Positions 47,332 through 62,666 of a stretch of 64,000 nt of DNA are shown here, piece after piece. The stretch's first letter is position 1. Each line of letters starts with the position of its first letter. The notes under the pieces were generated by a model. That model did no database searches. It was not told where the DNA came from and saw nothing but the letters and a program-made list of their open reading frames with translations. The stretch is from contig NZ_JAATWC010000009.1 in the NCBI RefSeq assembly GCF_012979235.1, positions 1-64,000 of the forward strand, in the 5' to 3' direction. This DNA comes from Dissulfurirhabdus thermomarina. GTDB taxonomy: Bacteria > Desulfobacterota > Dissulfuribacteria > Dissulfuribacterales > Dissulfurirhabdaceae. A program made the translations under genes and the position numbers.

Positions 47332-48289
47332 GGACGTCGGCCACGTGCCGGTCCTGGTCTCCGAGGTCCTGGAGGGGCTGGCGCCGGTCACGGGCGGGGT
47401 CTACGTGGACGGGACCGTGGGCCTCGGCGGGCATGCCGAGGCGCTCCTCCGCCATCCCGCCGGGGTGGGCCGGGTCATCGGGCTCGACCGGGACGCCTCG
47501 GCCCTGGACCTGGCGGCGGCGCGGCTGGCCCCCTTCGCCGACCGGCTCACCCTCGTCCACAACACCTTCGCGGCGCTGCCGGACGTCCTGGCGGTCCAGG
47601 GGCTCAAGGGGGTCCACGGCATCCTCCTGGACCTCGGCATCTCGTCCCACCAGCTGGAACACAGCGGCCGGGGGTTCGCCTTCTCCCGGGACGAGCCCCT
47701 GGACATGCGGATGGACGAGAGCGAGGGGATCACCGCCGCCGAGATGGTGAACCGGCTGCCGGCGGAAGGGCTGGCGGAGGTGATCCGCGTCTACGGGGAG
47801 GAACGCTGGGCCCGGCGGATCGCCGCGGCCATCGTCCGGGCCAGGCAGAAGACGCCCATCCGGACCTCCGCCGAGCTGGCCGGCGTGGTGACCTCGGCCA
47901 TCCCGGCCCGGTACCGGACGCGCCGGATCCACCCGGCCACACGGACCTTCCAGGCCCTGCGGATCGCCGTGAACCGGGAACTCGACGCATTGAAGGAGGC
48001 CCTGGACGTCTTGCCGTCCTGCCTGCTGCCGGGGGGACGGCTGTGCGTCATCTCCTTCCACTCCCTGGAGGATCGCATGGTGAAGCACGCATTCCGGGAG
48101 GACGTTCGGCTGGCGGTGATCACCCGCCGGCCGGTGACGCCCTCGACGGCGGAGGTGGCGGTCAACCCGAGGGCCCGGAGCGCCAAGCTCCGGGTGGCGG
48201 CACGAAGGGACGCGGCCGGCCGCCGGGGAAGGGCGGCCGGGGCTCCCGCGGACATCCCCGGTCGGGGACGGCAAGGAGGTCGATCATGA
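47279..48289 (+). CDS. rsmH: 16S rRNA (cytosine(1402)-N(4))-methyltransferase
   Basis: A 336-residue SAM-dependent methyltransferase for C1402 of 16S rRNA. HVPVLVSEVLEGL, VDGTVGLGGHAEALL (SAM loop), GLDRDASAL, ILLDLGISSHQLE, GFAFSRDEPLDMRMD, and the C-terminal CVISFHSLEDRMVK are present. I use TTG at 47279 because GAGGG stands 6 bases before it; it overlaps mraZ by 53 bases. A GTG at 47345 would remove the conserved His before PVL. Confidence 0.92.
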   Translation: MTSTAALWPTSAGSRRAEDVGHVPVLVSEVLEGLAPVTGGVYVDGTVGLGGHAEALLRHPAGVGRVIGLDRDASALDLAAARLAPFADRLTLVHNTFAALPDVLAVQGLKGVHGILLDLGISSHQLEHSGRGFAFSRDEPLDMRMDESEGITAAEMVNRLPAEGLAEVIRVYGEERWARRIAAAIVRARQKTPIRTSAELAGVVTSAIPARYRTRRIHPATRTFQALRIAVNRELDALKEALDVLPSCLLPGGRLCVISFHSLEDRMVKHAFREDVRLAVITRRPVTPSTAEVAVNPRARSAKLRVAARRDAAGRRGRAAGAPADIPGRGRQGGRS

Positions 48290-48645
48290 CGAGCAGAGCA
48301 GCCGTCTTGCGGATGCCGCAACGCCCCCGCGGCCGGGTGGTCGCCGCCGGGCGGGCGGCGGGCGCTGGCCGGCGTGAGCGGGCGCTCACCCTCCGGGAAG
48401 GGGTGGTCGCCGTGGTGGTCCTGGTGGCGGTGGCGCTGGGCGCCTGGACCAGTTACGAGATCCGCATGGTGGGGCGCGACATCGCTGCCCTGAGCCGGGC
48501 CGCAGCGGAACTCGAGGTCCAGAAGGCCCGACTGGCCGAGCGGCGGGACGCCCTCCTCAAGACCGGGCGGCTCGAGGCCCTGGGGCGTTCCATGGGGCTC
48601 CATCCCCCCACCCGGGAGCAGGTCTACCGGATCCGGGTCCGGTGA
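48286..48645 (+). CDS. ftsL: cell division protein FtsL
   Basis: A 119-residue single-pass protein: basic cytoplasmic start, membrane helix at about residues 38-56, then a periplasmic coiled coil (about 60-100) and a short end GLHPPTREQVYRI. Position, size and layout identify FtsL; sequence identity in this family is low. FtsL bridges FtsQ, FtsB and the FtsW-FtsI pair. AAGGAGGT precedes the ATG, and the start overlaps rsmH by ATGA. Confidence 0.83.
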   Translation: MTSRAAVLRMPQRPRGRVVAAGRAAGAGRRERALTLREGVVAVVVLVAVALGAWTSYEIRMVGRDIAALSRAAAELEVQKARLAERRDALLKTGRLEALGRSMGLHPPTREQVYRIRVR

Positions 48646-48660: not shown

Positions 48661-50328
48661 ATGCAGTGGCCTTCGGCTCGGGGATGGACCTTCTGGGGAG
48701 GGGCGGCCTGCGTCCTGGTGGCGGCCGCCCTCGCCCTGGATTCCGTCCTGGCCGTGGTGGCCCGCCCCCGGGAGGTCGGCACGGGGCCGGTCCCCGCGGC
48801 GACCCGGTGGACGGCCTGCGCCGGTGAAGGCGCCCCCTTCGCCCGGGGCGAGATCCTCGACCGGGGCGGCGTGATCTTGGCCGCCAGCCGCCCGGTGTTC
48901 CGCGCCCGGCTCCGGGCGGAGGACCTCGCCGGTGATCCCGGCCGGATCGGGCGCGTGGCGGCGCTGCTCGGCCTCGATCCCACCGAGCTCTCCCGCGAGT
49001 TGCTCGCCGGCACGGGCCCCGTGTGCCTGGACGAGGAGGTGCGGGGGGGGCGGCTCCAGGGGCTCCGCGGTCTCGGCGGCGGGGTGGACCTCGTGGAGGC
49101 CTGGCGCCGGGTGTATCCCTACGGGGAGGCGGCCTGCGCGGTTCTCGGCTACGTCTCGCCCGAGGGTCGGGGGCTCGACGGCGTGGAATACCTCCTGGAC
49201 ACCGCCCGGGCGGGCGGGGATCGGCCGATCGCCCTCAACCTGGACATCGGCCTCCAGATCCAGACGGAGCGGGTGCTCCGGCGGGTCTCGGCCGGCCTGG
49301 GCGCCGGGCGGGGGTGTTTCGTGGTGATGGACGTCCGGAGCGGGGCGGTCTCCGCCATGGCCAACTGGCCGGCCTGGGACCCCGCCCGATTCTACGCGAC
49401 CGACCGCGAGCGGTTGGGCAACCGGTCGCTCCGGGCCGACGTGGAACCGGCCGGGCTCCTGGCCGCCCTGGCCTGGGCCTCGGGCGGGGCCGCCCCCGCC
49501 GACCTGGCGGCCTGGGCCTGGCGGCCCCTCGGCCCCGACGTGCGGGTCTGGGGGCCGTGGTCCGGCTCCGCCCTGCGGCGCCTGGGGATCGGGGCGAAGG
49601 CCTTGGAGACCCTGTGGCGCTTCCGGCTGGGACAGGCCACGGGGGTGGATCTCCCGGGCGAGGAGACCGGGGCGCTGCCCGCCCTGGCGGCGGAGGCGGA
49701 CCTGCCCCTGGACAAGACCGGGGTCCGGGTCTCGCCCCTCCAGATGCTCGCGGCCTTCTCGGCCCTCCTGGACGGGGGCGTCCTCCACCGGCCGAGAATC
49801 GCGGCGGAGACCCCGGACGCCCCCGCCCGGGTCCCCGGCGAGGTGGTGCGTCCCCTGGCGGGGCTCTTTGCGGACCGGGGCGGCATGGTCCTCGGTGCCC
49901 GGGTGCGGGAGGGGATCCGCGGCACCTCGCGCCGGGACACCTGGCGCCTGTCGCTCTTGGGATGCTGGCCCCCCGGAGCCCCCAGGGTGGCCTACGTGAT
50001 GGTGCTGGACGGGATCGCCCCGGCCTCGGAGGCCCTTTTGCCGCCATGGCCGGAACTGGGTAGAATAGCCCGCTACGCCGCAGAACTTCCGGCGGACGAA
50101 ACCCTCTCCGCCACCGGAGGGGCGAATGGGCCGCCCGCCGCCGCGCCGCGGCGGATGCCCGACCTCAGGGGGAAGTCCTTCCGCGTGGCCCTGCGCATGC
50201 TCCAATCCACCCGACTCCAGATCCGGATCGAAGGCCGGGGCCGGATCGCGGACCAGGCCCCCCGGCCGGGCGCCCCCCTGGAGGGGGTCCGCGTCTGCCG
50301 CCTGGTCGGCGGGGAGGGGGGGCGATGA
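48661..50328 (+). CDS. FtsI-like penicillin-binding protein lacking the catalytic motifs
   Basis: A 555-residue protein in the ftsI slot of the cluster. A membrane anchor (about residues 11-33), a dimerisation region (GEILDRGGVILA, RVYPYGEAACAVLGYV, GLDGVEYLLD) and a transpeptidase-like domain (about 190-455) are clear, followed by one PASTA domain (about 499-551). All three active motifs of the family are gone: the SxxK site reads VEPAGLLA (261-268) where EPGSTFK is expected, the SxN site reads SGS, and KTG is missing near 418-428. The frame is intact. It is therefore likely a pseudo-enzyme with a structural role. No good ribosome site precedes the ATG. Confidence 0.85.
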   Translation: MQWPSARGWTFWGGAACVLVAAALALDSVLAVVARPREVGTGPVPAATRWTACAGEGAPFARGEILDRGGVILAASRPVFRARLRAEDLAGDPGRIGRVAALLGLDPTELSRELLAGTGPVCLDEEVRGGRLQGLRGLGGGVDLVEAWRRVYPYGEAACAVLGYVSPEGRGLDGVEYLLDTARAGGDRPIALNLDIGLQIQTERVLRRVSAGLGAGRGCFVVMDVRSGAVSAMANWPAWDPARFYATDRERLGNRSLRADVEPAGLLAALAWASGGAAPADLAAWAWRPLGPDVRVWGPWSGSALRRLGIGAKALETLWRFRLGQATGVDLPGEETGALPALAAEADLPLDKTGVRVSPLQMLAAFSALLDGGVLHRPRIAAETPDAPARVPGEVVRPLAGLFADRGGMVLGARVREGIRGTSRRDTWRLSLLGCWPPGAPRVAYVMVLDGIAPASEALLPPWPELGRIARYAAELPADETLSATGGANGPPAAAPRRMPDLRGKSFRVALRMLQSTRLQIRIEGRGRIADQAPRPGAPLEGVRVCRLVGGEGGR

Positions 50329-54378: not shown

Positions 54379-55881
54379 GTGTCCATGATGGGCATGGGAA
54401 CGTCACAGGCCGTCGCGCCGGAGCCCGGTAGATTCCATGGCTGCCGTGCCGTGGTCCTCGGTCTCGGCCTCTCAGGCCGGGCGGCGGCCCGGTGGCTGGC
54501 CCGGGGCGGGGCACGGGTCCACTGCACCGACGCCAGGCCCGTGGAGGAGTGGCCGCGGGAGTTCGTGGCCTGGTGCCGGGCCGCCGGGGTGGAGGTCCGG
54601 GGCGGCGGGCACGAGGCCGACCGCTTCGCGGCGGCGGACCTGGTGGTGGTCTCCCCCGGGGTGCCGCCCCGGCTCCCGGCGCTCCAGGCCGCCAAGCGGG
54701 CCGGGGTCCCGGTGGTGGGCGAACTGGCCCTGGCCGCCGATGCCTGGGAGGGGCCCATCCTCGCCGTGACGGGGACCAACGGGAAGACCACCACCACGGA
54801 GATCGCGGGCGCCATGCTCCGGGCGGGCGGCGTGGCCGGGGTCGTGGCGGGCAACATCGGGGTGCCCCTGGCGGATCTCCTCTGCGAGGGAGAGGGGAGG
54901 GGGACCGCCGTGGTGGAGGTGAGCAGCTTCCAGCTCGATACCTGCCCGGATCGGCCCGTCCCCGTGGGCGCCGGGGCCCCGCTCCGGCCCTTCTCGCCCC
55001 ATGCCGGGGCCTGGCTGAACCTGGCCCCCGACCACCTCGACCGCTACCCGGGAATGGAGGCCTACGGGGCGAGCAAGGCACGGCTGCTCCGGCTCCAGGG
55101 CGAGACGGACTGGGCCGTGCTCAACCGCGGGGACGTCTTCCTCGCGCCCTGGGCCGGCACGGGCCGGGGGCGCCGGCTCTTCTTCGGCTTCGGGGCGGAG
55201 GACATCCCCGGGGCCTGGGCCGACGCCGACGGCGCCGCCTGCCGGGTCCTCTGGCCCGACGGGAGGGAAGAGCGCTACGATCTCGCCGGCTGGACCCTCA
55301 AGGGCCGGCACAACCTCGAAAACCTCATGGCGGCGGTGCTGCTCGCCCGGGTGGCCGGGGCTCCGCCCGAGGCGGTCCAGGAGGTGATCCCCCTCTTCCG
55401 GGCTCCCGCCCACCGGATGCAGTGGGTGGGGCGCAGGGACGGCGTGGACTACTTCGACGACTCCAAGGCCACCAACGTGGCCGCGGTGGTGCGGGCCCTG
55501 GAATTCTTCGGCTCCGGGGTGGTCCTCGTGGCCGGAGGCCAGGGCAAGGGGGAGGACTACCGGCCCCTGGCGGAGGCCGCCCGGGGCCGGTTGCGCGGCG
55601 CGGTGGTGATGGGCGAGGACCAGGACGCCCTCGCCCGGGAACTCCGGCGCGTGACCCAGGTGGTGACGGTCCCCTACATCCCCGGCGGGGAACCCGATGA
55701 CGGGTTCCGGGCCATGCGGCGGGCGGTCCGGGCCGCCGCCGAGATGGCGCGGCCGGGGGACACGGTGCTTCTCGGGCCCGCCTGCGCCAGCTTCGATCTC
55801 TTCGAGAACTACGCCGCCCGGGGGCGCGCCTTCCAGGAGGCGGTGCGCCGGCTCGGCGAGGGCGACGGGGGGGAGGCGTGA
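54379..55881 (+). CDS. murD: UDP-MurNAc-L-alanine--D-glutamate ligase
   Basis: A 500-residue Mur ligase adding D-Glu. VVLGLGLSGRAAARWL at the start, VVSPGVPP, the ATP loop VTGTNGKTTTTE near residues 128-139, EVSSFQL, NLAPDHLDRY, and FDDSKATNVAAV follow. The stretch between EVSSFQL and NLAPDH (TCPDRPVPVGAGAPLRPFSP ...) is longer than usual, adding about 18 residues. The start is GTG at 54379; ATGs at 54385 and 54388 are alternatives. murG follows directly, with no ftsW. Confidence 0.93.
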   Translation: MSMMGMGTSQAVAPEPGRFHGCRAVVLGLGLSGRAAARWLARGGARVHCTDARPVEEWPREFVAWCRAAGVEVRGGGHEADRFAAADLVVVSPGVPPRLPALQAAKRAGVPVVGELALAADAWEGPILAVTGTNGKTTTTEIAGAMLRAGGVAGVVAGNIGVPLADLLCEGEGRGTAVVEVSSFQLDTCPDRPVPVGAGAPLRPFSPHAGAWLNLAPDHLDRYPGMEAYGASKARLLRLQGETDWAVLNRGDVFLAPWAGTGRGRRLFFGFGAEDIPGAWADADGAACRVLWPDGREERYDLAGWTLKGRHNLENLMAAVLLARVAGAPPEAVQEVIPLFRAPAHRMQWVGRRDGVDYFDDSKATNVAAVVRALEFFGSGVVLVAGGQGKGEDYRPLAEAARGRLRGAVVMGEDQDALARELRRVTQVVTVPYIPGGEPDDGFRAMRRAVRAAAEMARPGDTVLLGPACASFDLFENYAARGRAFQEAVRRLGEGDGGEA

Positions 55882-59391: not shown

Positions 59392-60225
59392 ATGAGGATC
59401 CGGCAGGCCACGAGGGGGCGGCCGCGGCGGATCGCGGCCGCGAAGCGGGGGACGGCCGGGCGCACGGCCCGGCGGCTGGGTGCGTACGGGGTGCTCTGCG
59501 CCGCGGTGCTGGCGGGGCTCTACCTCGGCTGGACCGCCCTCGGTCACTGGCCGGCGCTGGCCCTCAAGACCGTGGAGGTCCGCGGCGCCCACCGGGTCGG
59601 GCGCGCGGAGGTCATCCGGCTGAGCGGCGCCAGGCCGGGGATGAACCTTCTTGCCCTGGACCCCGGCGCCATGGCCCGGGCCGTGGAGGCCCAGCCCTGG
59701 ATCCGGCGGGCGGCCGTCCGGCGGGTCTTTCCCGACCGCCTGGTGCTCACCCTGGAGGAGCGGACCCCCGTGGCCCTCGTCAACCTGGACGGGATCCGGC
59801 TGGTGGACGCCGACGGCGTGGTGTTCAAGGCGCTCGAGCCGGGGGATCCGTCGGACCTGCCCCTCATCTCGGGGCTTTCGGCGGATCCCGGGCGCCCGGG
59901 CCGGCTTCCGTCCAAGGGGCTTCGGGCCCTTCGGCTCATCGCCATGGCGGGCCGGGGCGAACGGGTGCTCAGCGCCCGAAACATCGCCCAGATCCACTTC
60001 GAAAAGGACGGCCGGATGGTGGTCTACACGGCGGATGCCGCCGTGCCCATCGCCTTCGGCGACGGGGACCTCCGCCGGGAGTTCCGAAAGGCCGAGGCCG
60101 TCCTCTACCAGGTCTATCGATCCGGCCGGTATCACCGGGTCGCCAGGATCGAGTTGGACTACTCGAACCAGGCCGCCTGGGCCAGACTCAAGGAGGCTGG
60201 GGACCTCGTCCGGGCCCCGGAATGA
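59392..60225 (+). CDS. ftsQ: cell division protein FtsQ
   Basis: A 277-residue single-pass protein: a basic cytoplasmic start, membrane helix at about residues 29-48, a POTRA domain (LKTVEVRGAHRVGRAEVIRLSG ... QPWIRRAAVRRVFPDRLVLTLEERTPVALV) and a C-terminal FtsQ domain. FtsQ joins FtsL and FtsB at the division site. It is placed as usual between murB and ftsA. Confidence 0.92.
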   Translation: MRIRQATRGRPRRIAAAKRGTAGRTARRLGAYGVLCAAVLAGLYLGWTALGHWPALALKTVEVRGAHRVGRAEVIRLSGARPGMNLLALDPGAMARAVEAQPWIRRAAVRRVFPDRLVLTLEERTPVALVNLDGIRLVDADGVVFKALEPGDPSDLPLISGLSADPGRPGRLPSKGLRALRLIAMAGRGERVLSARNIAQIHFEKDGRMVVYTADAAVPIAFGDGDLRREFRKAEAVLYQVYRSGRYHRVARIELDYSNQAAWARLKEAGDLVRAPE

Positions 60226-60229
60226 GCAC

Positions 60230-61441
60230 GTGAAGGACATCGTCGTAGGACTCGATATCGGTACCACCAAGATCTGCGCCGTGGTGGGCGAGGTCCACTC
60301 GGACGGCGTGGAGGTGGTCGGGGTGGGGACCCACCCCTCCGACGGCCTCCGAAAGGGCGTGGTGGTCAACATCGAGAGCACGGTGAACTCCATCCGCAAG
60401 GCGGTGGAGGAGGCCGAGCTCATGGCCGGGTGCGAGATCGGCGCCGTCTACGTGGGGATCGCCGGCAGCCATATCAAGGGCTTCAACAGCCACGGGGTCA
60501 TCGCCGTCAAGGGGCGCGAGGTGAGCCAGGACGACGTGGACCGGGTCATCGACGCCGCCCGGGCCGTGGCCATCCCGCTGGACCGTGAGGTCATCCATAC
60601 CCTGCCCCAGGAATACATCGTGGACGACCAGGACGGCATCCTCGACCCGGTGGGGATGACCGGGGTCCGCCTGGAGGCCCGGGTCCACATCGTGACCGGG
60701 GCGGTGACCGCCGCCCAGAACCTCATCAAGTGTGCCAACCGGGCCGGCCTCGACGTGGTGGACATCGTGCTCCAGCCGCTGGCCTCGGCGGAGGCCGTCC
60801 TGACCGACGAGGAACGGGCCCTGGGCGTCGCCCTGGTGGACTTCGGGGGCGGGACCACGGACCTGGCCATCTTCGCCGACAGCACCATCAAGCACACCTC
60901 GGTCCTGGGACTCGGGGGGAACAATCTCACCAACGACATCGCGGTGGGGCTCCGGACGCCCATGCGGGAGGCCGAGCGCATCAAGGTCGGCCACGGCTGT
61001 TGCGCCAGCGGCCTCGTGGGACGCGACGAGATGGTCGAGGTGCCCAGCGTCGGCGGCCGAAAGCCCCGCCTGCTCTCCCGCCAGGTCCTGGCGGAGATCC
61101 TGGAGCCGAGGGTCGAGGAGATCTTCTCCCTCATCGACCAGGACATCGAGCGGACCGGGCTCAAGGATCTCCTCGCCTCCGGCGTGGTGCTCACCGGGGG
61201 CACCGCCGAGCTGGAGGGAATGGTGGAGGTGGCGGAACAGGTGTTTCAGCTCCCGGCCCGGGTGGGCTATCCCCGGCGGGTGGGCGGCCTGGTGGACGTG
61301 GTGAGCGCCCCGATGTACGCCACCGCCGTGGGCCTCGTGCTCTACGGCGTCGACAACCCGCCCCGGCACAAGTTCCGCATCCGGGACGGGAACATCTTCA
61401 ACCGGGTGGCCGGCCGGATGAAGAACTGGTTCCGGATCTAG
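60230..61441 (+). CDS. ftsA: cell division protein FtsA
   Basis: A 403-residue actin-like protein that ties FtsZ to the membrane. [17 protein letters not shown] (phosphate 1), the 1C subdomain (about residues 85-160), [16 protein letters not shown] (phosphate 2), [15 protein letters not shown] (adenosine) and the C-terminal amphipathic helix [11 protein letters not shown] are all clear. The start is GTG at 60230, 4 bases after the ftsQ stop. Confidence 0.96.
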
Positions 61442-61496: not shown

Positions 61497-62666
61497 ATGC
61501 CTTTCGAATTCGTCGAACCGGAGCAGGCCGCGCGGATCCGGGTGATCGGTGTCGGGGGCGGCGGGGGCAACGCCGTCAACAACATGATCGCCTCGGAGCT
61601 CAAGGGCGTGGAATTCATCGCGGCCAACACCGACGCCCAGGCCCTGGAGCTCTCCCGCGCGGGGCAGAAGATCCAGCTGGGCCGCAATCTCACCAAGGGG
61701 CTCGGCGCCGGGGCCAAGCCCGAGGTGGGGCGCGAGGCCGCCGAGGAGGCGGTGGACGAGATCCGAGAGGCCCTGTCCGGCTCGGACATGGTCTTCATCA
61801 CGGCCGGCATGGGCGGCGGGACGGGAACCGGGGCGGCACCGGTCATCGCCGAGCTCAGCAAGGAGATGGGGGCGCTCACGGTGGCCGTGGTGACACGCCC
61901 CTTCATGTTCGAAGGCAAGCGCCGGATGCGCCAGGCCGAGGAGGGGCTGGAGCGGCTCAAGGAGGTTGTGGACACCATCATCACCATCCCCAACGACCGG
62001 CTCCGCAGCCTGGCCGCGCCCAACACCCCCCTCATCGAGATGTTCCGGAAGGCGGACGAGGTGCTCTACTTCGCGGTCCGGGGCATCTCTGACCTCATCG
62101 TGGTCCAGGGCTACGTGAACGTCGACTTCGCCGACGTCCGGACCGTCATGGGGGAGATGGGGATGGCCCTCATGGGGACGGGCGTCGCCCGGGGCGAGCG
62201 CCGGGCGGTGGAGGCGGTGCAGATGGCCATCGCCAACCCGCTCCTCGAGGACATCTCCATCAGCGGGGCGCGGGGCATCCTCATGAACATCACCGCCAGC
62301 AGTGCCACCCTCAGCATGGAGGAGGTGGACCAGGCCTCCACCCTCATCCACAACGAGGCCCACGACGACGCCAACATCATCTGGGGGACCGTCTTCGACG
62401 ACAGCCTCGGCGACGAGATCCGCGTAACGGTGATCGCCACGGGGCTCGGCGCCGGGGCACAGCCCGAGGCCCGCTCCATCGTGGCGCCCATCGAGCTGGC
62501 CCGGGCGGGGGGCAAGGGCGAGGCGGGTCGCGGCGGGAAGGAGGACGTCGGGCTGGGCGATCCCGGGGCCAGAGCCCTCCGCCGCCGGCCGGCGAGGAGG
62601 GCGCTCACGGAGCTGGACGAGGCCCAGCTCGAGATCCCGACCTTTTTGAGGCGAAAGGCCGACTAG
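61497..62666 (+). CDS. ftsZ: cell division GTPase FtsZ
   Basis: A 389-residue tubulin homologue that forms the division ring. [14 protein letters not shown], the tubulin signature GGGTGTG at residues 106-112, NDRL, the T7 synergy loop [12 protein letters not shown] and the C-terminal peptide [11 protein letters not shown], which binds FtsA and others, are complete, joined by a linker of about 60 residues. The upstream gap of 55 bases has GGGGGAAG before the ATG. Its TAG stop overlaps the glmM stop on the other strand. Confidence 0.97.

Follow-up and report, generated by a model that had tools for sequence, protein, structure and literature searches.

An FtsI-like protein without catalytic motifs is maintained in a bacterial order where no FtsW is found

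What is left for FtsI to do in a bacterium whose copy has lost its catalytic residues? The FtsW-FtsI pair is treated as near-universal for the division of walled bacteria, and the question is raised by a gene in the dcw cluster of Dissulfurirhabdus thermomarina (the genus belongs to Thermodesulfobacteriota, Dissulfuribacterales in the NCBI taxonomy), within the 64,000 nucleotides analysed here (hereafter the window). The gene (48661..50328; this and all other window features are on the + strand), referred to as pseudo-FtsI, is an intact open reading frame of 555 amino acids. An earlier note had described an intact FtsI-like dcw gene without the transpeptidase motifs; as a whole this observation held, and the phenomenon is wider than noted, as both the absence of FtsW and the clade-wide spread of the dead state had been missed. 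The genome used here amounts to 2,461,349 bases in 34 contigs, and the published assembly of strain SH388T, whose cells are Gram-negative short rods, comprises 2,461,642 bp in 36 contigs (two of them <200 bp) with a GC content of 71.1% and ~1384x coverage (PMC7463578).

The FtsI layout and the intact frame are supported by the translated ORF, Pfam searches and the hydrophobicity of the anchor. A membrane anchor lies approximately at residues 16-34 (48706..48762; Kyte-Doolittle maximum 2.47, no lipobox), followed by the PBP dimerisation or pedestal domain at residues 61-168 (48841..49164; PBP_dimer PF03717, 38.4 bits), a Transpeptidase Pfam match over residues 313-384 (49.8 bits) and a PASTA domain at residues 498-540 (50152..50280; PF03793, 25.5 bits). 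Compared with solved structures, a profile of the order found its best match in FtsI/PBP3 (E 2.1e-53). The cluster reads mltG, mraZ, rsmH, ftsL, pseudo-ftsI, murE, murF, mraY, murD, murG, murC, murB, ftsQ, ftsA and ftsZ, several of these names being assigned from sequence and position. The gene at the FtsL position (48286..48645), between rsmH and pseudo-ftsI, gave no hit in a Pfam search and is identified by its place, where relatives have homologues as well. The division genes ftsQ (59392..60225; POTRA_1 and FtsQ_DivIB_C), ftsA (60222..61441, with an approximate start and a name based on sequence and position) and ftsZ (61497..62666) are all retained.

Is the active site really gone? As AlphaFold2, run on a two-sequence alignment of the window protein, reached a pLDDT of only 28.1, the motif positions rest on profile alignment, for which HHalign compared 24 members of the order with 39 active FtsI from this phylum (E 1.3e-82). 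At the SxxK position, E262-P-A-G265-L-L-A268 (49444..49464) replaces EPGSxxK, with G265 aligned to the nucleophile serine and the SxxK lysine facing a gap, A268 being next. The SxN position is occupied by W297-G298-P299 (49549..49557; HHalign and column counts), where a W(G/S/T)P motif conserved in the order stands in place of SSN, and the KTG position by R416-E417-G418 (49906..49914). Thus, the placement of the SxxK site at VEPAGLLA (residues 261-268) in the earlier note held; its SxN site, SGS at 301-303, was put four residues too far downstream, and the segment IRGTSRRDTW that it quoted for KTG (near 418-428) begins just after the aligned position, the loss itself being correct in both cases. 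A KTG at residues 352-354 is a chance occurrence in the TGVRVSPLQML region, off the active-site strand. A scan of the whole protein found S-x-x-K at none of its 555 positions. In the order alignment the Ser column holds V, P, I, G and others and the Lys column never a lysine; given that both columns vary freely, the loss of catalytic residues exceeds chance. We therefore consider it very unlikely that the protein is still catalytic with an unusual residue set, a reading for which no supporting evidence was found and which is contradicted by the missing S-x-x-K, the presence of only three lysines (K313, K352 and K505) and the inconstant Ser column.

Homologues of pseudo-FtsI (19-38% identity) are found throughout the order's families, in the same dcw position in the neighbourhoods fetched, and both Ser and Lys are lost in 28/28 relatives covering the site as well as in the window protein (row L027, whose sequence does not cover the site, was left out of this count). 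Other parts of the protein are well kept, e.g., the LGQATGVDLPGE region (residues 322-334, 49624..49662), with invariant or near-invariant columns in the order alignment (A1), and the GCWPPGAPRVAYV segment (residues 434-446, 49960..49998), in which G434, P437, P441 and Y445 are invariant in A1; besides W(G/S/T)P, the order-conserved segments are LGxGQxTGIDLPGE and GFWPxxxPxxSYI. In the pairs tested, dN/dS is 0.11-0.40 for the whole gene and 0.08-0.31 for the dead transpeptidase domain, which is similar to, or slightly higher than, the values of murE (0.15-0.24) and rsmH (0.12-0.36) in these genomes. Given this purifying selection (~0.1-0.4), we conclude that the protein is maintained. A decaying pseudogene or a sequence error would account for catalytic residues that are all gone, but is very unlikely in view of frames that are intact order-wide, including the complete genome G004, of the selection just described and of the ~1384x coverage of the published genome. 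Two marks of a pseudoenzyme are present, homology to an enzyme family with lineage-wide catalytic loss and purifying selection, and the suggestion of a pseudo-enzyme in the earlier note held in the sense of a maintained one; the scaffold or regulatory role it attached to this remains an inference.

The architecture is not uniform within the order, as PASTA is kept in most members but seven (L011, L015, L017, L018, L026, L032 and L033) end before it, and most members of family f9 lack part of the pedestal. As a separate observation, pseudo-FtsI of families f2 and f9 has a lipobox-like N-terminus (e.g., FVGC, FSGC; rows L006, L010, L012, L020-L022, L024, L025, L028, L030 and L031), in contrast to the transmembrane anchor of the window protein.

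The usual partner of FtsI is also missing. No FtsW-type SEDS was found in the order: at the usual ftsW site of the window murD overlaps murG (55878..55881) without a SEDS gene, the two genes adjoin in the neighbourhoods of relatives too, and the one SEDS of the window genome is located outside this dcw cluster. Exactly one SEDS is present in 45/46 genomes of the order (none in 1/46, which is fragmentary), and in the well-assembled ones (35/35) it is RodA beside PBP2, adjacency being judged only where both genes were placed. The window genome holds three PF00905 proteins (PBP2, a class A PBP1 and pseudo-FtsI) plus one YkuD protein. With all catalytic residues and FtsW lost, the dividing wall must therefore be built another way, and because only PBP2 (beside RodA) and PBP1 remain with a transpeptidase fold, plus the YkuD protein, it follows that septal cross-linking falls to a different enzyme, as the earlier note had proposed. 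In the window genome, PBP2 (L001:580-2571, G000 C1) reads AGKTATV, against AGKTGTA in those order members whose PBP2 motif was readable, so that the elongation enzyme has an altered third motif as well. Genomes of f2 and f9 (e.g., G041:C239, G001:C66) encode a further PF00905 protein (~410-490 aa) that the window genome lacks, a candidate extra transpeptidase in these families.

Dead FtsI and loss of FtsW go together across the phylum. Most of the 296 genomes surveyed have two SEDS, and among 30 FtsI loci from such genomes, 29 are full length, all of them (29/29) with SxxK, SSN and KTGT, the 30th being cut before KTG. FtsI is also active in 7/7 genomes whose single SEDS lies in the dcw cluster (G064, G068, G111, G138, G194, G252 and G286), so that, where a genome has two SEDS or one in the dcw cluster, FtsI keeps the motifs SxxK, SxN and KTG in 36/36 cases. 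Conversely, 14 genomes in which the SEDS lies beside PBP2 (families f25, f28, f71, f72, f81 and f95; they include G059, where RodA is split over two frames) have a dead dcw FtsI, as does G148 (f25), in which no SEDS was found; this makes 15 genomes with a dead FtsI and no FtsW, from six families outside the order. In f63 (L201:6780-7766, G132) the FtsI slot of the dcw cluster is filled by a 329-aa protein that has a hydrophobic segment at its N-terminus and a PASTA-like C-terminus but no recognisable transpeptidase domain, while f35 gave short PASTA-matching frames and f39 PBP2-like matches only. Apparent exceptions, with active FtsI and FtsW not found (G237, G046, G281 and G087), have an interrupted dcw cluster or a fragmented assembly (100 Ns in the fetched region of G237; 380-740 contigs in the other three), and in G184 the single SEDS and an active FtsI are on different contigs. 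The Clostridia FtsI L065 is active (EPGSTFK, KTGT). On a host tree (rsmH and murE) the dead state needs three changes, and a single dead clade is not rejected (AU p 0.341 on a reduced taxon set; 0.727 without f28). Because one versus several origins is unresolved, the association cannot be counted as many independent events.

That FtsW is absent has been reported before, for four Desulfobulbaceae genomes (PMC7873302) and, as regards the dcw cluster, for Thermodesulfobacteria (PMC8871954), and our genomes agree in this respect. However, the relevant sections of these papers do not describe a dead FtsI active site, and in the literature searched (subscription papers were mostly outside its scope) we found no dcw FtsI described as catalytically dead. 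The cable-bacteria paper (PMC7873302) instead counts FtsI as present and invokes its activity, and this assumption is now put in question for that group. Cultured carriers, identities being inferred, are Desulfurivibrio alkaliphilus AHT2 (which we take to be G211) and Dissulfurimicrobium hydrothermale Sh68 (type strain Sh68T, taken to be G004); G220 is only tentatively taken to be Thermodesulfatator indicus.

Which known system comes closest? The window protein resembles FtsI/PBP3 in its dcw slot between the ftsL position and murE and in combining a pedestal with a penicillin-binding transpeptidase fold (from sequence profile, not structure), but lacks SxxK, SxN and KTG as well as the cognate SEDS polymerase FtsW. 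In SpoVD/SpoVE of endospore formers (PMC10693644) a dcw-encoded bPBP is likewise diverted from vegetative division, but to sporulation and with a SEDS partner; a leftover SpoVD was rejected here, as Spo0A_C was found in 0/45 genomes tested. In Clostridioides difficile the septal synthase is the class A PBP1 (PMC10693644), and a class B PBP (PBP3) forms a complex with it and promotes it non-catalytically (PMC12539705), i.e., division is promoted without a functional FtsW/FtsI pair. That bPBP is an orphan and has an active site, though this role does not depend on it; in our case the protein encoded in the dcw cluster is itself dead. Of what a class A PBP-driven divisome calls for, the lack of a canonical FtsW/FtsI pair and the presence of a class A PBP are seen in our case, whereas a septum made by that PBP is inferred by analogy.

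The FtsI layout, the dcw position, the catalytic loss, the purifying selection, the coupling to FtsW loss and the retention of ftsQ and ftsZ are all shown at the level of sequence. From these we infer, leaning towards this reading without being able to press it, that in this lineage, which has also lost FtsW, an FtsI ortholog has turned into a divisome subunit with a non-catalytic part to play. Pseudo-FtsI would stay with FtsQ/FtsL at the Z-ring, where its pedestal, dead transpeptidase fold and PASTA domain may recruit or switch on the remaining synthase. Septal peptidoglycan is predicted, from sequence alone, to come from the class A PBP1 and/or RodA-PBP2, the partner being unproven; the bifunctional PBP1 would be the likeliest by analogy with the non-catalytic role of C. 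difficile PBP3, and RodA-PBP2 the second choice. This preference rests on the analogy only, and interaction, localisation and activity are all inferred. It is possible that the contacts differ between families, given the lipobox-like anchor of f2/f9 and the incomplete pedestal of most f9 members.

A swap of SEDS partner also remains possible: pseudo-FtsI would pair at the septum with RodA, activating it by the pedestal, while cross-links would come from PBP2 or PBP1. FtsI activates its SEDS partner separably from transpeptidation, contacts between the pedestal and ECL4 have been proposed as what activates FtsW and RodA alike, and some bacteria need FtsI though its transpeptidase activity is dispensable (PMC8078798); moreover, RodA is the only SEDS left and the window protein keeps both transmembrane anchor and pedestal. 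Against it, most f9 members lack part of that pedestal, and f2/f9 proteins look lipidated and not membrane-spanning, so that the usual contact of SEDS and bPBP within the membrane would be lost. We consider it unlikely that the protein is a PASTA-based sensor or wall landmark without a direct synthase partner, the remaining fold being a relic: PASTA in most members, the f63 slot protein and the short f35 frames speak for this, but the seven members that stop before PASTA and the purifying selection on the dead transpeptidase domain speak against it. A bolder version of the non-catalytic subunit reading, as likely in our view to fail as to stand, is that in diderm Thermodesulfobacteriota the loss of FtsW made FtsI an obligate non-enzyme subunit that drives a septal class A PBP or RodA, leaving a divisome that has no SEDS-bPBP enzyme pair at the septum; a single ancient origin is not ruled out by the AU test (p 0.34).

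With FtsI kept without catalysis and without FtsW, the order amounts to a natural separation-of-function experiment in which the non-enzymatic role is isolated, and PBP3-specific beta-lactams are predicted not to block division via pseudo-FtsI. A minor observation concerns the adjacent murE, which in many loci (L066, L068, L069, L071-L073, L075-L085, L191, L197 and L198) is a frame of ~900-1000 aa, with no murF as a gene of its own. This suggests that MurE and MurF are fused in most families of the order as well as in f25, whereas the window (f1) and f4 (L067, L074) have two distinct genes.
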